From Leptotrichia trevisanii DSM 22070 (GTDB taxonomy: Bacteria > Fusobacteriota > Fusobacteriia > Fusobacteriales > Leptotrichiaceae): DNA of 59,889 nucleotides. The notes under the pieces were generated by a model. That model was not told the origin of the DNA, made no database searches, and was given only the letters and a program-made list of their open reading frames with translations. How positions within the stretch are numbered: position 1 is the first letter of the stretch; each line of letters starts with the position of its first letter. The stretch is from NCBI RefSeq assembly GCF_000482505.1, contig NZ_KI519446.1, positions 34,609-94,497 of the forward strand, given 5' to 3'. Shown in pieces: positions 12,958-13,065 of this stretch. Position numbers and translations under genes: made by a program.

Positions 12958-13065
12958 TTTTATACTATTTCCTATTTAAATAGCGAATATTTAATAAATT
13001 TTGAATTTCATACTATTTTAACTAGAAATTTTAATTTCTAGTTTCTAATGGGGTTTAGTATCAGG
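12958..13065 (-). mobile_element. MITE-like repeat, copy A
   Basis: Read on the minus strand, this stretch begins CCTGATACTAAAC (13065 downward) and ends AATAGTATAAAA (12958). Its body aligns closely with the copy at 30546-30662: GATACTAAA, then TTAGAAA, later AAAATTTATTAAATATTC, CTATTTAAAT and AATAGTAT. The ends are near-inverted repeats of each other (TGATACTA and TATACTA). It also contains a near-perfect hairpin, ACTAGAAATT (13021-13030) and AATTTCTAGT (13033-13042). It begins directly at the lgt stop codon. Confidence 0.65.

Follow-up and report, generated by a model that had tools for sequence, protein, structure and literature searches.

The window analysed here is a stretch of 59,889 nucleotides from Leptotrichia trevisanii DSM 22070 (contig NZ_KI519446.1, positions 34,609 to 94,497). 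It contains two related short elements, copies A and B, whose positions are given in Table 1 along with that of a third, copy C, which was proposed in the initial annotation. Copy A begins right after the stop of lgt, between convergent genes, and copy B sits upstream of the start of a methyltransferase gene. An ORF at 12305-12883, resembling by eye an IS3-type OrfA helix-turn-helix protein, adjoins lgt and occupies the same position beside it in most of the Leptotrichia genomes that were examined; between this ORF and lgt lies a hairpin, ACTGTCA...TGACAGT, with a T-run (12888-12926). Searches of Rfam gave no match in the window or for the elements, only the neighbouring tRNAs passing.

Table 1. 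Positions in the window of the elements, their parts and their target triples
Feature	Position	Strand	Remarks
Copy A	12963..13060	minus	98-bp core, TACTAAACCCC...AATAGTA on the minus strand; E=1.9e-13 to B
Target triples of A	12960..12962; 13061-13063		TTA (low-coordinate side); TCA (other side); from the sequence and the family rule
Copy B, full 203-bp insertion	30455..30657	plus	from comparison with the G009 ortholog
Inner 107-bp unit of B	30551..30657	plus	homologous to A along its length
Target triples of B	30452..30454; 30658-30660		TTA (left); TCA (right), the latter TTA in the G009 ortholog
Copy C of the initial annotation	55170..55201	plus	rejected as family member

Two copies of one element in the window

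The relationship of A and B, first noticed from the sequence of the window, was assessed in several ways and proved firm. When copy B was used to search its own genome, the further copies that such a search had been expected to yield were found: 14 places were retrieved at E<=0.01, A among them at E=1.9e-13. With a profile of the element, the scores in the window are 73.6 bits for B and 64.5 bits for A, although both were part of the training alignment, so that independent E-values are not available from this search. The right-end unit, allowing up to three mismatches, matches the genome 48 times and its reversed-pattern control not once, while the left-end unit gives 113 matches against seven for its control. 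With about 80% AT in the DNA, and with copy C (see below) showing that short ends may match by chance in it, the similarity of A and B might be put down to composition. The reversed-pattern controls already refute that reading for A and B, profile matches in 13 of 13 genomes speak against it too, and we consider its probability negligible.

The inverted ends described in the initial annotation are indeed common to A and B, but the terminus itself is TACTAAAC, the outer three base pairs of the repeat as first drawn being target sequence. The core of A spans 12963-13060. The left end of B lies at 30455 and not at 30546, the latter being an inner terminus. This is seen in the ortholog of B in G009, where TTA is followed directly by TACTAAACTC at the position of 30455; the outer left end in the window reads TACAAAACTC. 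Both copies have TTA on one flank and TCA on the other, as against the TTA found on both sides of B in G009.

The sites of both insertions can be followed in related species. Copy A is absent from G009 and G010, and TACTAAA-like remnants are visible 3' of lgt in G002, G003, G004 and G008. Since these remnants are at the same place, the insertion of A may be older than it appears, and its absence from G009 and G010 may reflect losses by deletion, not true empty sites. Copy B is present in three of the 13 species (G000, G009 and G010) and absent from ten. The two genes flanking its site are about 35 bp apart in G006, G008 and G011 compared with 258 bp in the window; the short spacing may be the ancestral one. 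Elsewhere in the window, a weak profile match on the minus strand at 2446-2543 (E=3e-4; 0.005 with nhmmer) is perhaps a decayed copy.

Copy C, in contrast, does not withstand the same scrutiny. It is matched neither by nhmmer at E<=10 nor by the element profile, and the score of its terminal alignment, 14.0, falls within the range of the maxima of twelve Markov-shuffled windows (12.5-15.0). The stretch also runs unbroken, at 93-95% identity, through four sister species (G010, G011, G001 and G008). On this comparison of sequences, a chance resemblance of short ends in AT-rich DNA appears the better reading. From 55130 on, the stretch is part of a 99% duplication within its own genome: window positions 55130-55500 correspond to G000:C21:18123-18493, upstream of and into the second methyltransferase gene, and G008 has a second copy too.

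The initial annotation further suggested that the element may export promoters; in this reading its right end, with a -10-like TAGTAT box, would drive the downstream gene. The position of B upstream of the methyltransferase start would fit, and so would the fact that, of 24 unique copies in a tandem setting, 15 have their right end turned towards the gene downstream. However, this ratio of 15:9 for downstream and upstream genes, among 33 unique copies, is not significant. Promoter-like sites number five at B compared with 3.0 +/- 1.6 in shuffled sequence, match the level of shuffles at A too and number zero at C; in addition, C is no copy at all and A lies between convergent genes. Promoter export is thus unsupported, though conceivable for single copies, and as an explanation of the family we think it improbable. 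To the neighbouring genes of the window, the insertions of A and B most likely amount to near-neutral spacer DNA.

A family spread through Leptotrichia

The element profile, trained on 23 copies, finds 30 copies in the genome of the window and between one and 28 in each of 12 sister genomes. Allowing at most one mismatch, the end pattern occurs in each of the 13 genomes from the genus, whereas a search of 47 further genomes of the order gave none. Among named genomes, nine of the ten stretches with exact end matches are from Leptotrichia (L. hongkongensis and Leptotrichia sp. oral taxon 879); the only other one comes from a Methylococcaceae MAG. The copies are non-coding, numerous, dispersed between genes and polymorphic between relatives; with a simple ORF caller, none of 34 copies in the own genome and none of 33 unique copies in the genus lie inside an ORF. 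A and B therefore very probably belong to a family of miniature inverted-repeat transposable elements (MITEs) found so far only in Leptotrichia.

In being short and non-coding, with inverted ends, many intergenic copies and no transposase of its own, the family resembles the prokaryotic MITEs covered in a review (PMC10969869), and differs in having its own termini and its own genus; the review makes no mention of Leptotrichia or Fusobacteria. Likewise, no description of Leptotrichia MITEs was found in the titles and abstracts of the literature searched.

The family has a modular layout. The unit of about 100-120 bp represented by A is also the right-hand part of longer elements such as B, so that it occurs both alone and in composites. 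Of 28 unique full units, eight exceed a loose score threshold for a B-type outer arm, five of them clearly and A only at threshold level; the others are solo. Inner and outer ends might both be usable, or solo units might arise by deletion. The BOX and RUP repeats of pneumococcus, likewise small, interspersed and present in many copies, are comparable in layout but belong to another host and differ in sequence.

Ends, target site and candidate enzymes

The terminus TACTAAACCCCRTTTAAA is present in inverted order at the two ends of the element, and paired copies with TACTAAACCCCRTTTAAA-like ends range from 32 to 455 bp. Wider end pairs were considered as candidates for an autonomous element, but neither the 1.07-kb pair L037 nor the pairs L003 and L020 contain a transposase-like ORF. 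At the other extreme, the same 32-bp sequence, hardly more than a fusion of two termini with TTA on either side, occurs twice in the own genome (G000:C69:26164-26195 and C69:124686-124717).

With the terminus set at TACTA, 56 end pairs were available for study of the flanking triple. It is TTA or TAA (TWA) at 46 of 56 left ends and 45 of 56 right ends. The same triple is found on both sides in 23 pairs, nested pairs included, where 18.8 would be expected (P=0.12); by itself this falls short of significance. Five insertions were also aligned with sister species lacking them. As we read the alignments, two empty sites, L114 (TTA, against G010) and L088 (TAA), reveal an exact 3-bp target duplication; at L110 the length is right for such a duplication with one base changed, and L080 and L026, both in A-runs, are one base off. 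The 30 copies in the own genome, the matches in 13 of 13 genomes, the inverted ends and the empty sites with a 3-bp target together bear out the initial description of a genome-wide, non-autonomous, MITE-like element.

A transposase supplied in trans would cut at the ends and insert the element into TWA in AT-rich intergenic DNA, and the 3-bp TWA/TNA target points to a possible enzyme of the IS5 superfamily, IS1031-like in type. In the IS5 family, the IS1031 group inserts at TNA and generates a direct repeat of 3 bp (PMC12016507), and a 5'-TWA-3' target duplication is characteristic of PIF/Harbinger and its MITEs (PMC4482050), although the latter are eukaryotic and their likeness to the Leptotrichia element is one of target only. 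The Leptotrichia element shares the 3-bp TNA target with the IS5/IS1031 elements but has no transposase gene, and its ends are not theirs: the IS5-type transposons of the genus that were examined as partners end in GGGCGTGTCTGAAAAC or AGACCTGTTCGATAAC. For this reason the family is not filed as IS5-derived. The initial annotation had looked to an insertion sequence with the same terminal repeats, but none was found among the PF01609 and PF13359 loci examined, some stretches of which are N-masked. IS5-type insertion sequences were also seen in close association with the family, one between two element ends (L190:1003-1979) and one between two direct copies of the left part of a long element (L199:1126-2404).

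The right end of the element folds, in the alignment, into a small hairpin of seven pairs, which raises the question of whether the repeats could be palindromes of a REP-like or IS200/IS605-derived kind, mobilised by a Y1 (HUH) transposase. Just one pair of the hairpin is changed on both sides, however, and the own genome contains no Y1 transposase (PF01797) in searches whose controls were positive. Elements of the IS200/IS605 type are not known to make a target duplication, so that the long inverted ends of this family, with their target of 3 bp, are a misfit. Such an origin seems to us very unlikely, and movement by a transposase acting in trans at the inverted ends is the reading we prefer.

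The cassette of the long members

Long members of the family in the genus contain a cassette of about 185 nt, absent from the window, which is the most unusual feature met in this work. It is known from L118:402-585, L120:394-581 and 25 more copies (alignment A3), and comes in two variants, with 90-96% identity within a variant for most copies. Copy B looks, we infer, like a derivative that does not carry the cassette. The cassette matches no Rfam family, and neither it nor the element end has a match in the phage, plasmid and viral collections.

The alignment of the cassette contains a 23-pair stem in which both sides are changed at 11 of the 23 pairs, yet 97% of stem cells are paired; most of the changes divide just two groups, however, so that independent events may be few. 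Over the whole structure, 97.8% of cells are paired, compared with 36-52% when the partners are slid. This pattern tentatively suggests that the cassette makes a structured RNA, or forms structured single-stranded DNA, which is maintained by selection and has a part in mobilising or regulating the elements; to this possibility we give a minor though real weight.

For annotation, copy C drops out together with the promoter claim, and a structured cassette conserved in the long members comes in. What emerges is a MITE family spanning the genus Leptotrichia, with a defined TWA target and nested units, whose anatomy, empty sites and profile provide the means to look for the partner enzyme. If the structured cassette does act on the elements, this MITE family would not be a purely passive one.
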